DNA of 54,447 nucleotides from a virus (IMGVR_UViG_3300045579_000282:1-54447); one strand, 5' to 3'. Numbered from the stretch's first letter, positions 47,682 through 54,447 are shown. Translations and numbers: made by a program. The notes: generated by a model not told the origin, from the letters alone.

Positions 47682-48605
47682 ATGCAGAACTACACCGAAA
47701 TTCCATCCTCAACGACGCTGTCTGACTCGTTGTCTCAGATCCTGAACAACGACAAGACGGCGCTCTCACTCTCGAGCGGAACGTCTTTCCCGACGGTCAA
47801 CCTGCAACTGGGCATGCCGTGTTTCAGGACCGACGAGCAAAAGCTCTACATCCTCACGGTGGTCAGCCCTGCTTCGTGGAAGATGGTCATTGACCTCTCG
47901 GCCACTGTCGGCAAGGTGGCCAATGCGGACCTGCTCGATGGCATCGATTCCACCGGCTTTGCCTTGTCGGGGCACAACCATGACGCAGCTTATGCCGCGC
48001 TGGCCCACAACCACAATGCCGCCTATCTGGGCATCACGGCCAAGGCTGCTGATGCTGACAAGCTCGATGGCTATGACTCGACAGCCTTTGTGCGATCAGT
48101 CAACGGTTACGGGCCTGATGCCAATGGCAACTCCAGTGTGCCCATTGATCTTTCGAGCCGTGTGGCCAAGTCCGGCGACACCATGACTGGCACCCTCACG
48201 GCGCCCAGGCTGCAAATTGCAGGCACGGCCAATTATCTGGACATGGTGGATCAGGACTGGGGCACCCGGTATCTGCACCACAACCAGGGGCTCATGGGAT
48301 TTTTGAAATCCGATGGCAACTGGGACATGTACATGAACAACAGCGGTCAGATGTGGACAGCCAACTACGGATGGCTGCACGACTACTTCTTCAGCACCAT
48401 CGCTAACTGTTTCATCGGCAACTGCCCAGGCAACACGGGCAATTGCAGCCCAGTGGGCAACAACGCGACTTCTGTGGTTTCGAACTGCGGTAGCGCATCT
48501 TTTGTCCGCGATGAGCTGGTGGACAACGGCAGCCAGATTTCTGTTCGAAGAACCCAATACAACTTCAACTGCAACTGCAATTGCAACTGTGATTGCTACT
48601 GCTGA
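47682..48605 (+). CDS. Tail fibre with Cys/Asn-rich C-terminal tail
   Basis: This 307-aa protein starts at the ATG at 47682. The N-terminal 80 residues match phage tail-fibre attachment sequences. Repeats with HNH triplets follow (GHNHDAAYAALAHNHNAAY), then DADKLDGYDS; such HxH motifs often bind iron in trimeric fibres. From residue 243 to the end there are ten cysteines, eight of them preceded by Asn. The last six alternate: C297, 299, 301, 303, 305 and 307. This tail has no match to known fibre tips that I recall. The next three genes include a likely oxygenase and a radical SAM enzyme, which suggests the tail is modified. The fibre call is sound; modification is inference. Confidence 0.7.
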   Translation: MQNYTEIPSSTTLSDSLSQILNNDKTALSLSSGTSFPTVNLQLGMPCFRTDEQKLYILTVVSPASWKMVIDLSATVGKVANADLLDGIDSTGFALSGHNHDAAYAALAHNHNAAYLGITAKAADADKLDGYDSTAFVRSVNGYGPDANGNSSVPIDLSSRVAKSGDTMTGTLTAPRLQIAGTANYLDMVDQDWGTRYLHHNQGLMGFLKSDGNWDMYMNNSGQMWTANYGWLHDYFFSTIANCFIGNCPGNTGNCSPVGNNATSVVSNCGSASFVRDELVDNGSQISVRRTQYNFNCNCNCNCDCYC

Positions 48606-48618
48606 TCCGGGGAAACAA

Positions 48619-49197
48619 ATGAGCGATTTGACCAAAATTTTCCCCGCTCCGGTGCTTCGCATCCAGGAGCTGTTGAGCCCCACTGAGGTTGAGCAGGCGA
48701 CCGAGCTGGCCATCAAGGCCAACGAGCGCCTCAATGACCATCAGGTCCCGTACTCCCGCACCTACCGAGACAGCCTGGACTTCATGTTCCCGGAGTTCTT
48801 CAAGCCCATATTCCGACGCCTGCGCCGCAGCATCGAGGACGAGTTCAAGTGCAGCGTCAGCAACATGGTGGGGCGCGAATCCATATTTCGCTACGGCCAG
48901 CACCTGCCTTTCCACACCGAGCCGCACGCTGATATTTCTTGCGTGCTGTGGCTGGACTTCCCCGCAAAACCCGATCCATCCAGGCGCGACTATTCGGGCA
49001 TGTTCTGCCTGCACAACCCGCACCTCCTGTTTGGTGGCCGCGCAACAGCCGTGTTTGGCAACATCAACCACATGGAAATGCCATCGCCTGGTGATGCCTT
49101 CGTTTTTCCCTCCCACATGCCGCACTTTGTGTTCCCGTACAACGGTGAGCGCCCTGGCGTGGAACTTCACTTTGAGATGCTTGCGGAGGCTGCATGA
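48619..49197 (+). CDS. 2OG-Fe(II) oxygenase-like protein
   Basis: This 192-aa protein starts at the ATG at 48619, 13 bases after the fibre stop. It has the pattern of 2-oxoglutarate-dependent Fe(II) oxygenases. PFHTEPHADIS gives H99-x-E101, or alternatively H103-x-D105, as the first metal pair. FPSHMPHFVFPYNGERPGVELHF gives His169 and Arg178, the latter for 2OG binding. The family hydroxylates proteins or small molecules. Placed between a Cys/Asn-rich fibre and a radical SAM enzyme, its target is plausibly the fibre tail. It overlaps the next gene by 4 bases. Substrate is unproven. Confidence 0.7.
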   Translation: MSDLTKIFPAPVLRIQELLSPTEVEQATELAIKANERLNDHQVPYSRTYRDSLDFMFPEFFKPIFRRLRRSIEDEFKCSVSNMVGRESIFRYGQHLPFHTEPHADISCVLWLDFPAKPDPSRRDYSGMFCLHNPHLLFGGRATAVFGNINHMEMPSPGDAFVFPSHMPHFVFPYNGERPGVELHFEMLAEAA

Positions 49198-49895
49198 AGC
49201 TCGTTACCTTCAATGTCAGCGTCGATGAAGAAAAGGCGGTGCGTGTAGAGCAAACCGCTGACGGCTACACAGTTTCCTTTGCTGGCGCATCCATCAACAT
49301 CGGCGTGCAACTTTTCAAGCAGGGCGAGCTGCAGTTCCTGATGTATGGCAAGCAGTATCAGAGCGAGGTTATTGGCATCGTTTCTCAGCGCGAATATGTC
49401 GACAGCCGAGATGGTCTGACGATCCTGGCTCAGCACGGCCTGACCGATGGCCTGGGCTGGTTCTACTTCGGTGAGACCGCCGAAGAGGCCTGTCTGTGCA
49501 TCACCAAAGCCATGACGACGCAATGCCCATTCGGCATCGTGCAGCCGGGTAAGCCCCGTGATGTTCTGCCAGGCATCTTCCCCGACAGCGAAAGGCTGGG
49601 GGTTCGGAACCTAGCAAAGATCGCGCTGCTGCGCAAACTCAACCCGCTCGACAGCCTTGCCGCCCTGGAAAAACAGGTCGACTTGCTCAGTTCCCTGGTC
49701 ATCCAACTGGCCAACCTGGTGCCTGGCCAAGAAGACATCGCCTTGATTAACCACCTCCAGCACATCATCAACGATGCCAGCGCCAATGCGGGCAAGAGCG
49801 ACGATCAAACCGTCGCCAGCGTGTTGTCCTTCAAGATGGCCCTGCGCCAGGCGCAGGCCGATTACTTCGCTGCACGCGACGGAGCCACATCATGA
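49194..49895 (+). CDS. Hypothetical protein of the fibre-modification operon
   Basis: I do not recognise this 233-aa protein. The N-terminal half has short strands (LVTFNVSVDEEKAVRVEQ, then YTVSFAGASINIGVQLF) and the C-terminal half is helical (LDSLAALEKQVDLLSSLVIQ). It overlaps both the oxygenase and the radical SAM gene by 4 bases, so all three should be co-translated. It could be a substrate-recognition or scaffold partner of the modification enzymes. A virion part is also possible. Confidence 0.6.
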   Translation: MKLVTFNVSVDEEKAVRVEQTADGYTVSFAGASINIGVQLFKQGELQFLMYGKQYQSEVIGIVSQREYVDSRDGLTILAQHGLTDGLGWFYFGETAEEACLCITKAMTTQCPFGIVQPGKPRDVLPGIFPDSERLGVRNLAKIALLRKLNPLDSLAALEKQVDLLSSLVIQLANLVPGQEDIALINHLQHIINDASANAGKSDDQTVASVLSFKMALRQAQADYFAARDGATS

Positions 49896-51265
49896 CCAAA
49901 TTCATCGTCACTACCATCAACCCCGACAACGAACAACTTACCCGTTTTCACTATGACAATGCAACCAGCGAATTGACCCGCGAATCTGGTGAGCCTGTGG
50001 TTCATGCGGTCGAAGTCGCTGAGCGCGTAGAGGCTCCAGCAGTCTCCAAGCAGGCACCGCTGAACAAAACCAGCCCCCGCATCCTCAAAATTAGCCTTGG
50101 CCTGTCTTGCAACTACGAGTGCGAATACTGTTCGCAGCGTTTTGTTCCGCGCTCAGTCGAAACCAACCACGGCGATGTGCAGGCCTTCATCGACGGCCTC
50201 GACGCCTGGGTGACGAGCACGCCTGAGAAGGTCGAGTTCTGGGGTGGCGAGCCCCTGGTCTACATCAAGACCATGCGCCCCCTGGCCGAGGCCATCAAGG
50301 CCAAGTTCCCCAAAGCAGAGCTGTCGGTCATCACCAACGGCTCGCTGCTGAGCGATGACATCAACGAATGGCTTGACCGCATGGGTTTCAATGTCGGTAT
50401 CTCGCACGATGGCCCTGGCCAGCATGTGCGCGGCCCTGATCCCCTACAAGACCCCCAGCAGCGGGCCGCCATCATGGCGCTGTACGCCCGGTTGGCCCCG
50501 CAGCGGCGTATCAGCTTTAACGCGATGGTCAATCGCAAAAACGCATCGCGCGCCGCCATACAGCGCTTTTTCATCGAGCTGACTGGCGATCCCAGGGTGC
50601 CCATTGGTGAGGGCTGCTTTGTTGATGCCTATGACGAAGGCGGCATTGCCCTTTCGCTTCAGCCGTATGAGTTGCACGCCTACCGCAGTCAGGCCTTTCA
50701 CGAAATCCGTACTGGCCAGGCCGCCAACGTCCAAGCCGTGAATAGCAAGACGGCCAGCTTCGTCAATTCCATCCGAAGCCGCCGCCCGGTATCCAGTCTG
50801 GGCCAGAAGTGCGGCATGGATAAGTCCGACAGCATCGCAGTTGACCTGCGCGGAAACGTCCTGACCTGCCAGAACGTGAGTGCAGCCAGCACCGCACCCA
50901 ATGGCCAGGCCCACCGCATTGGCCGTGTAACTGATTTGGCTGGAGTCAAGCTCGACACGGCCACGCACTGGAGTAAGAGGGCGGACTGCCCGAATTGCCC
51001 GATGCTGCAGATTTGCCAAGGCTCCTGCATGTTCCTGGAGGGGCCCCTTTGGGATCGATCCTGCGACAACGCGTTCTCTGATGCTGTGCCCATCTTTGCC
51101 GCTGGCATCGAATTCCTGACCGGACAGGTACCGGTGCACATTGAGGGCATGTTTCGGGAGGACCGCAAAGACATCTTCGGTATCTCTGGTCAAGGGCTCA
51201 ACAACCAGGGTGCTACCCCGAAGCCAGCAAGAAAACCTTTCCCGATCCCGGTCGTCTCCGTTTAA
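49892..51265 (+). CDS. Radical SAM/SPASM enzyme encoded in the tail module
   Basis: This 457-aa protein has the radical SAM signature C73-x3-C77-x2-C80 (LSCNYECEYC) and GGEP at 118-121. The SPASM domain is complete. C307 precedes GNVLTC with C326; C366, C369, C375 and C379 follow in spacing CX2CX5CX3C; and C391 closes the set. That fits seven cysteines for two extra 4Fe-4S clusters. SPASM enzymes modify peptides and proteins, for example forming thioether or C-C links. It is unusual inside a phage tail operon. The nearby Cys-rich fibre tail is the obvious candidate substrate. Regulation would follow the late operon. Confidence 0.88.
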   Translation: MTKFIVTTINPDNEQLTRFHYDNATSELTRESGEPVVHAVEVAERVEAPAVSKQAPLNKTSPRILKISLGLSCNYECEYCSQRFVPRSVETNHGDVQAFIDGLDAWVTSTPEKVEFWGGEPLVYIKTMRPLAEAIKAKFPKAELSVITNGSLLSDDINEWLDRMGFNVGISHDGPGQHVRGPDPLQDPQQRAAIMALYARLAPQRRISFNAMVNRKNASRAAIQRFFIELTGDPRVPIGEGCFVDAYDEGGIALSLQPYELHAYRSQAFHEIRTGQAANVQAVNSKTASFVNSIRSRRPVSSLGQKCGMDKSDSIAVDLRGNVLTCQNVSAASTAPNGQAHRIGRVTDLAGVKLDTATHWSKRADCPNCPMLQICQGSCMFLEGPLWDRSCDNAFSDAVPIFAAGIEFLTGQVPVHIEGMFREDRKDIFGISGQGLNNQGATPKPARKPFPIPVVSV

Positions 51266-52710: not shown

Positions 52711-52899
52711 TTCAAGAAAAAAACGACTCAATCAACCCGTAGAAAACTTGCAATTCATTCGATTTCAGGCCTTCATGTCCAACATAATGTCACTGGTGAA
52801 TTGCATTGTAATTTCATGATGCGAAACAAATGCTGAGCTGGTGCAAGTGTCTGCTCAGACAGTTTGCCGGGTGACAATTACTCTGCAAGATTAAATTTA

Positions 52900-54447
52900 A
52901 TGGAACAAAAAAGCGGCATCCCAGTTATTGATCTTTTCGCTGGACCAGGTGGTCTTTGCGAAGGCTTTGCATCTCTTGTTCGTGGCGGAACACGTGAGTT
53001 CGACATACGTGTTTCGATTGAAAAAGATCCCGTGGCTCACAGGACCCTTTCACTGCGGGCGCTGTTTCGGTCATTTCCGGTTGGCAAAGTACCAGAGCCG
53101 TACTACCAATACATAAGGGGAGAGATCTCTCGCAATCAGCTTGAAAACGATCCAGCGGTCAAACCATTTGTTGCCAAGGCATACAGCGAGGCTCGCTGTG
53201 CAGAGTTGGGCAAGGATGACCACAGTGAAATTGATGGATGGATCCGCGAGGGGCTTGCTGGAGCAAAGGACTGGGTCCTGATTGGTGGTCCTCCTTGTCA
53301 GGCCTATTCCCTAGCCGGTCGCGCACGGATGCGCGGCAGCAACCCCAAAGAGTTTGAAGCTGACAAGCGGCATTTCCTTTATCGCGAGTACCTTCGGATC
53401 ATCAAGGAGTTTTCTCCTTCTGTTTTCGTCATGGAGAACGTGAAGGGGATGCTGACTTCCCAGCACTCGGGGTCACCAATTTTCGACCGCATTCTTGGTG
53501 ATCTTCGGTCTCCCGGAAATGGGCATGAATATCTCATCCGCTCATTTATTGTTCCAGGTGAAATTCAGAACCCCGATGACTTCGTCATCAAGTCAGAGGA
53601 ACTTGGAATTCCGCAAAGTCGACATCGGGTGATTCTTTTTGGTATCAGGGCTGACGTTGCTGACTCCGTCCCAGACCTGATCCAACATCCCGAAAGATTC
53701 AGCCTCGCTAAGGCGCCACGAGTTACTGCACGGGAAGCACTGGATGGATTGCCTGCGCTTCGCAGCAAACTGTCAAATCGATTTGACGGAATGCCCGACT
53801 CCATTGCTAATTGGCAGAAAGCTCTCGTAAATGGCCTGAAGATCCTTGAAAAGAAAAGGAGCGGTGTGCCTATTCGGGTCCTCGAGCGAGCTCAATGGGC
53901 GGTGACTAAGTCATGGATTCACAAGTCAACTGGCGGCTTGTTTATCAAGTCAGATGTGTCAATGGGTGGAGCCCTGGCATCCTGGTATCAGGATGCCAGA
54001 ATTGGTGGGGTTACTCTGCACGAGACACGGAGCCATATGGAGTCCGATCTTCATCGGTACCTCTTTGCATCTTCATTCGCTCGTGAGGAAAAGCGATCTC
54101 CAAAACTGCGAGATTTTCCCGATGCAATGCTTCCGAGTCATGAAAACGTGAATAGTGATTCAACTCCATTTGTGGATCGATTCCGTGTCCAGCTACGCCA
54201 CCAGCCATCCACAACGATCGTGTCCCATATTGCCAAGGATGGGCACTACTACATTCATCCCGAGCCCTCGCAGTGCCGGAGCTTGACGGTTCGAGAGGCT
54301 GCGCGCTTGCAGACGTTCCCCGATAACTATTTCTTCGAGGGTAACCGAACGCAGCAGTACCACCAAGTGGGGAATGCTGTCCCGCCGCTGTTGGCCCGGA
54401 AAATCGCTGAAATTGTCCTCAGACTGTTGCAGTCGGCCCGACGTTGA
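52900..54447 (+). CDS. C5-cytosine DNA methyltransferase (orphan)
   Basis: This protein is about 515 aa from the ATG at 52900; an upstream in-frame TTG is possible and no strong ribosome site is seen. It has all core C5-MTase motifs in order. DLFAGPGGLCEGF binds SAM (residues about 9-21). GGPPCQAYSLAGR has the catalytic Cys. ENVKGM and QSRHRVILFGI follow, and QVGNAVPP closes the core. The region between the last two motifs is long, as expected of a target-recognition domain. No restriction partner is adjacent, so it is probably an orphan phage MTase that protects against host restriction. It is AT-richer than the late genes, suggesting separate acquisition. The gene ends exactly at the window edge. 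Confidence 0.93.
   Translation: MEQKSGIPVIDLFAGPGGLCEGFASLVRGGTREFDIRVSIEKDPVAHRTLSLRALFRSFPVGKVPEPYYQYIRGEISRNQLENDPAVKPFVAKAYSEARCAELGKDDHSEIDGWIREGLAGAKDWVLIGGPPCQAYSLAGRARMRGSNPKEFEADKRHFLYREYLRIIKEFSPSVFVMENVKGMLTSQHSGSPIFDRILGDLRSPGNGHEYLIRSFIVPGEIQNPDDFVIKSEELGIPQSRHRVILFGIRADVADSVPDLIQHPERFSLAKAPRVTAREALDGLPALRSKLSNRFDGMPDSIANWQKALVNGLKILEKKRSGVPIRVLERAQWAVTKSWIHKSTGGLFIKSDVSMGGALASWYQDARIGGVTLHETRSHMESDLHRYLFASSFAREEKRSPKLRDFPDAMLPSHENVNSDSTPFVDRFRVQLRHQPSTTIVSHIAKDGHYYIHPEPSQCRSLTVREAARLQTFPDNYFFEGNRTQQYHQVGNAVPPLLARKIAEIVLRLLQSARR

Follow-up and report, generated by a model that had tools for sequence, protein, structure and literature searches.

The closest described counterparts of the phage system analyzed here are the ranthipeptide and sactipeptide maturases PapB, NxxcB, and CteB (the SCIFF maturase), in which a radical S-adenosylmethionine (SAM) enzyme with a SPASM domain lies beside a Cys-repeat substrate whose short, regular motif contains several Cys. 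PapB forms several, even nested, Cys–Asp links and tolerates varied spacing (PMC9413430), and the NxxcA substrate has a thioether between Cys and Asn, the acceptor pair also proposed here, within an N-x-x-C motif that is contained in NCNC (PMC8326336). We analyzed a cassette at positions 47,682–51,265 of the IMG/VR virus record IMGVR_UViG_3300045579_000282, hereafter the window (the whole stretch of 54,447 nt), which encodes a Cys-rich tail fiber, a 2-oxoglutarate (2OG)-Fe(II) oxygenase-like protein, an accessory protein, and a radical SAM/SPASM enzyme. Unlike PapB, CteB, and NxxcB, whose substrates are leader–core peptides, this enzyme would act on a full-length phage fiber that retains its modified tail. 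The window cassette also adds 2OG oxygenases and an Ig-like or other partner, and its enzyme falls short of the cut-offs of these named maturases.

Two further enzymes offer partial parallels. The quinohemoprotein amine dehydrogenase maturase QhpD is likewise a radical SAM/SPASM protein and makes Cys thioethers that are kept in the protein structure, but its substrate is a subunit of a bacterial periplasmic enzyme rather than a virion fiber. The anaerobic sulfatase-maturating enzymes (anSMEs) share the same architecture and act on a protein Cys. Among phages, the window enzyme and its relatives, including one in the record of phage 2-1, belong to phrog_1802 (‘radical SAM domain-containing protein’), a PHROGs entry given without function or partner, for which the link to a fiber array is new here. 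The radical SAM genes of pelagimyophages, which we liken to ours by description only, also lie in the fiber region of marine T4-like phages and were presented merely as variable cassettes (PMC7029224). A literature search of open-license papers found no description of a radical SAM enzyme linked to a phage fiber. We know of no experiments on a fiber-array radical SAM system and of no precedent for radical SAM peptide maturation on a virus particle.

We propose, with a probability of about 0.7, that the cassette is a phage-encoded maturation system for a receptor-binding fiber, in which the radical SAM enzyme cross-links an array at the fiber tip. The enzyme would act on the C-terminal (X-Cys)n array of the fiber-tip protein encoded just upstream, with the neighboring Asn-Cys dipeptides of the tip as probable additional targets, and would introduce several thioether cross-links from Cys sulfur to nearby residues, chiefly Asn, by chemistry like that of sactipeptides and ranthipeptides. 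Where present, one to three 2OG-Fe(II) oxygenases may hydroxylate the same tip, and a partner (an Ig-like protein or, in the window, the accessory protein) could present or protect the substrate or join the fiber. The virion protein would keep its modified tail, which would then form a cap, either rigid or reactive, beside the hypervariable tip. Such a product might make the tip stiffer or better protected, or contribute to the receptor-binding surface, with a possible effect on adsorption or stability.

A C-terminal Asn-Cys array and its partner enzyme

The window fiber, assigned as such by its phrog_8443 profile match and its position in the tail module, has a C-terminal end that reads FNCNCNCNCDCYC and a trunk that is common to 80 IMG/VR loci. 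Window-type fibers carry a constant tail behind a hypervariable tip: across 24 non-redundant fibers, mean identity to the window fiber falls from 73% in the trunk to 29% in the tip and rises again to 65% in the array. Across loci, the array comprises 3–10 X-Cys units, in which X is Asn (70%), Ala (13%), or Asp (10%). The bias toward Asn extends into the residues ahead of the array, where 240 of 271 Cys are preceded by Asn (89%, against a 12% Asn background). Selection acts on the array peptide itself, because synonymous codons occur together in 85 of 95 arrays and the close relatives of the window differ in their array codons by synonymous changes only. The same codon mixing, with only two arrays built of perfect hexamers, rules out a hexamer repeat at the DNA level as the origin of the array. 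In the fiber of Achromobacter phage JWF (L155, 4844–6295), the segment that leads into the variable tip scores 29.9 bits against Shufflon_N (PF04917; cut-off 27.5), the constant part of PilV tip adhesins, which hints at a common tip-exchange junction.

Fiber bodies and phage types vary between cassettes, and the array and the radical SAM enzyme stay constant. Besides window-type fibers, the array is carried by marine T4-like fibers, by tandem tip proteins of ~90 aa each with its own tail, by an NC-rich protein of ~130 aa directly before the radical SAM gene, and by a 1084-aa open reading frame (ORF). At loci L098 (7111–8282, + strand), L142 (9433–10242, reverse strand), and L106, a single radical SAM gene is preceded by two or three tandem small tip-like proteins of ~90–170 aa, each with a separate Asn-Cys array at its end. 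The most fitting description of the putative substrate is a C-terminal fiber-tip array of the Asn-Cys type, at times borne by several small tandem tip proteins or placed directly before a Hint domain.

The association between array and enzyme was sampled from three sides. On the enzyme side, loci were collected by the radical SAM gene only (34 IMG/VR relatives, 79 loci in GTDB genomes, and 80 of at least 584 loci in a wider IMG/VR scan); 78 were counted after clustering at 85% identity, with 4.5 kb of upstream sequence present and a profile score of at least 300. A strict array was defined as an ORF with C.C.C among its last 14 residues. An upstream array on the same strand accompanies the enzyme at 69 of the 78 loci, 61 times at a C-terminus and 8 times directly before a Hint domain; the other nine comprise four with a relaxed array and five that are array-free. 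With the opposite strand of these regions as the control, the strict-array count falls to 2 of 78 (p = 3.5e-31). On the tail side, IMG/VR was scanned for DNA encoding N-C-N-C-N-C-stop, with matches in spurious ORFs (<40 aa) as a built-in control: a same-strand radical SAM gene lies downstream of 57 of the 63 ORFs of at least 75 aa where this could be judged, and of none of the 23 spurious ones. On the fiber side, 80 relatives of the window fiber trunk were retrieved with the tail left out of the query, and all 70 with enough DNA have both array and enzyme (69 with the array, one with the array followed by Hint). Array-free fibers were sought by the tip motif QFxN(D/N)LGNYG; where both states could be judged, array and enzyme were both present in 7, both absent in 19, and never found one without the other (p = 1.5e-6).

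Chance co-location of array and enzyme is ruled out by the opposite-strand, spurious-ORF, and motif-matched controls. The first-pass annotation of this DNA had set conserved pairing of the radical SAM family with a Cys-rich fiber gene as a test of its proposal, and the pairing held strongly from the enzyme, tail, and fiber sides alike, which supports that proposal. The array tail as the predicted substrate of the enzyme is well supported because the two co-occur. The cassette recurs in IMG/VR, in GTDB prophages, and in cultured phages; five bacterial loci (two in Roseobacters and one each in Rhodoplanes, Paraburkholderia, and Magnetospirillum) resemble prophage tail regions, as judged by eye. 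On balance, we consider it probable that the cassette represents a widespread, transferable adhesin-maturation system, made of an (Asn-Cys)n C-terminal tag, a dedicated radical SAM/SPASM enzyme, and interchangeable 2OG oxygenases, that serves the receptor-binding tips of unrelated phages.

In some phages the array does not end the reading frame. The fibers of the cultured Achromobacter phages JWF and 2-1 read ...NCNCDCNCNCSCFPAGTMVLMADGT... or nearly so, with the array running into a Hint domain (PF05203; 3e-12 in JWF and 5.3e-12 in 2-1). A similar geometry is seen in Rhodospirillaceae prophages and at loci L220, L283, and L285, the Pfam matches of these three loci being below gathering scores. 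Array-then-Hint loci occupy at least three separate places on the radical SAM tree, and this repeated placement of Hint directly after the array suggests that a free C-terminal array may be what the system requires. Hint autocleavage at Cys1 would turn the array into a new C-terminus, as in the other phages. In the window, the array stops at the stop codon and Hint or intein-like processing was not found. At L228 (Magnetospirillum), ~3 kb upstream of the radical SAM gene, an array running into a Hint-like domain (NCNCNCNCNCCNCGSCFPAATPVAMADG) was missed by the automatic criterion.

Enzyme family, bond type, and alternatives

The window enzyme belongs to the radical SAM superfamily (PF04055, 34.7 bits against a cut-off of 29.5, with a CxxxCxxC motif) and has a SPASM domain (TIGR04085, 31.8 bits against 27, with seven auxiliary-cluster Cys). 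The cluster and SPASM Cys are invariant in an alignment of 10 diverse family members, in agreement with the enzyme class named in the first-pass annotation. None of the named maturase models listed for the enzyme scores anywhere near its cut-off. The best of these include PapB (NF047865, 53.5 bits against 340) and QhpD (TIGR03906, 50.3 bits against 453), both Cys-thioether enzymes, and the anSME model (TIGR03942) is lower, at 39.7 bits against 349.45. Among phage isolates, full-length relatives were found in Achromobacter phages JWF and 2-1 only; the radical SAM proteins of Erwinia jumbo phages align with the window enzyme over a short stretch, and the search for plasmid-borne relatives turned up generic radical SAM proteins alone. 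Two loci of Parasutterella muris (L231 and L235) hold distant relatives of 28–29% identity near CxxC-type repeat proteins (HCSYCSYCTYCSQCSNC) or a ANCNCDCRCDCDC tail, perhaps a related gut-phage version.

By comparison with described enzymes, the system would work like a ranthipeptide or sactipeptide maturase on a retained protein tail; of the families tested, the enzyme falls within radical SAM/SPASM only. As for the definition of ribosomally synthesized and post-translationally modified peptides, the array lies at the C-terminal end of a full-length virion protein, and a separate leader or protease was not recognized among the cassette genes. We give the thioether slightly better than even odds as the bond type. 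The enzyme might instead modify the array by another route, making formylglycine (and with it a reactive aldehyde tip), alternating D/L residues, or a bond at Asn, C–C or otherwise. Alternating epimerization would fit the strict spacing of Cys at every second residue; the JWF enzyme is annotated as an anSME, and the PDB matches include both anSME and the epimerase YydG. We nevertheless regard these chemistries as unlikely, since the YydG and anSME matches are weak or run through generic radical SAM regions, the CxPxR sulfatase motif is absent, and the window family has an invariant Gln327 at the position of Asp277 (numbering on 4k37), which follows a SPASM Cys and which we take to be the anSME catalytic residue. 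Formylglycine maturation in particular is disfavored by Gln327.

Less probable again is an array that stays unmodified, as a metal-binding or disulfide tail, beside an enzyme that targets another fiber residue, the Ig-like partner, or a small molecule. The (X-Cys)n pattern is similar to metal-binding repeats, His clusters occur in some tips (HHFDPHHHHNNCTNCNCNC), and non-Cys residues can be targets of SPASM enzymes. Against this stands the coincidence of array and enzyme across unrelated fibers and even in small proteins that resemble fibers in little except the tail, as well as the three loci L048, L100, and L127, where the gene of an NC-rich protein is the only one ahead of the radical SAM gene. 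It is very improbable that the cassette is a moron in the tail region whose product is a peptide or metabolite unrelated to the virion: phage radical SAM genes are usually interpreted as metabolic (PMC2853527), and those of the pelagimyophage host-recognition cluster are given without a fiber link (PMC7029224), but the array sits on the fiber protein itself, the gene order is kept in marine T4-like phages, siphophages, and prophages, and the array-then-Hint arrangement appears at three or more places on the radical SAM tree.

Several points weigh against maturation of the fiber array by the radical SAM enzyme. The strict array criterion was fixed after the first loci had been viewed, the later scans being independent of it. 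Among the five of 78 enzyme loci at which no array was seen, one (L161) resembles a frame-altered fiber, and six proteins of 185–203 aa end in NCNCNC with no radical SAM gene nearby (L094, L107, L088, L099, L115, and L133). A leader-binding domain (RiPP recognition element, RRE) was not recognized in the window enzyme, and the bond type is guessed from distant kin, the enzyme lying outside all named thioether maturase families. The six NCNCNC proteins may be true exceptions or unrelated proteins.

Gene layout and interchangeable accessories

All four genes of the cassette were located on the + strand, with the boundaries and order that the first-pass annotation had given them, the oxygenase-like, accessory, and radical SAM genes coming after the Cys-rich fiber (Table 1). 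The 4-base overlaps it had described among these three genes were found at 49194–49197 (oxygenase-like/accessory) and 49892–49895 (accessory/radical SAM). The fiber and oxygenase-like genes do not overlap; the best ATG of the latter, at 48619, lies behind GGGGAAACAA, 13 bases past the fiber stop. The predicted placement between tail and lysis genes was likewise recovered: the cassette is preceded by the tape measure, minor tail proteins, and J-like central fiber (phrog_31, 1007 bits) of a lambda-like tail module and followed by an endolysin (phrog_3513) and an Rz-like spanin. A C5-cytosine DNA methyltransferase (PF00145, 8.8e-46) is encoded at the end of the record (52864–54447).

Table 1 Features of the fiber–radical SAM cassette in window coordinates.
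Feature	Position	Strand	Basis
Tail fiber / receptor-binding tip protein, 307 aa, proposed substrate	47682..48605	+	phrog_8443 tail fiber, 7.5e-6; lies between J-like fiber and lysis genes
Hypervariable fiber tip segment with Asn-Cys dipeptides, residues 241–294	48402..48563	+	identity drop relative to trunk and array
C-terminal (X-Cys)n array NCNCNCNCDCYC, proposed modification site	48567..48602	+	sequence; conserved position in radical SAM loci
2OG-Fe(II) oxygenase-like protein, 192 aa	48619..49197	+	phrog_81, 2.9e-12; PF13759 below gathering score; in one family with oxygenases of other cassettes
Accessory protein, function unknown, 233 aa	49194..49895	+	alignments; Achromobacter phages JWF and 2-1 have a related gene at the equivalent position
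Radical SAM/SPASM enzyme, 457 aa, phrog_1802	49892..51265	+	PF04055, 2.5e-8; TIGR04085 above cut-off; phrog_1802, 1.6e-60
CxxxCxxC radical SAM cluster motif (C73, C77, C80)	50108..50131	+	invariant in alignment of ten members
SPASM domain, seven invariant Cys (C307, C326, C366, C369, C375, C379, C391)	50810..51064	+	alignment of ten members; TIGR04085

The oxygenase-like identity proposed for the second gene stands on its phrog_81 match, which places it in the 2OG-Fe(II) oxygenase family; with Pfam it was not recovered, the PF13759 score of 22.7 bits being just under the gathering score of 27. A related oxygenase in the L008 cassette clears that score at 40.3 bits. The AlphaFold model of the accessory protein has a mean predicted local distance difference test (pLDDT) score of 78, and a PDB search with this moderate model did not yield a fold (best E only 0.17). 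The accessory protein was also considered as a homologue of the Ig-like partner and rejected, with an hhalign probability of 0.1% and no profile similarity.

Of 98 non-redundant cassettes, 72 encode an Ig-like or similar partner, at least 52 a 2OG-oxygenase-like protein, and 10 a member of the window accessory protein family; 11 have none of the three. The figure for oxygenases is a minimum, an overlapping frame having hidden the oxygenase from automatic gene choice in close relatives of the window. Where present, the oxygenases occur as one to three diverse copies. The Ig-like or similar partner is ~280 aa long, and the C-terminal domain of the one that was modeled matches Ig-like folds in the PDB. 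Because of this composition, the core of the cassette is the radical SAM enzyme and the array tail, and oxygenases and partners are interchangeable, optional accessories. Three extra genes follow the radical SAM gene in marine T4-like phages (L010, 9389–11706, and relatives among L011–L027), encoding a ~100-aa protein of unknown function, a TRAP DctP-like solute-binding protein (PF03480, 4.8e-27), and an SGGIDST-type Asn-synthase/ATP-pyrophosphatase-like protein.

Implications for phage adhesins

If the proposed maturation is correct, the cassette would be the first radical SAM post-translational modification of a virus particle, as far as we know, and may combine new Asn-Cys chemistry with Hint-assisted exposure of the tail. 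Radical SAM and 2OG oxygenase genes in the fiber region, seen in marine, freshwater, and prophage genomes and commonly interpreted as metabolic, would thereby gain a function, and the system would make a compact, repeat-based substrate available for new radical chemistry. The cultured Achromobacter phages JWF and 2-1 and the culturable carriers Limnohabitans and Thalassobacter allow direct testing. Phage fiber tips decide which bacteria are infected, and their diversification is generally thought to be by sequence; chemical remodeling of the tip, if true, would add a further layer to phage host recognition.

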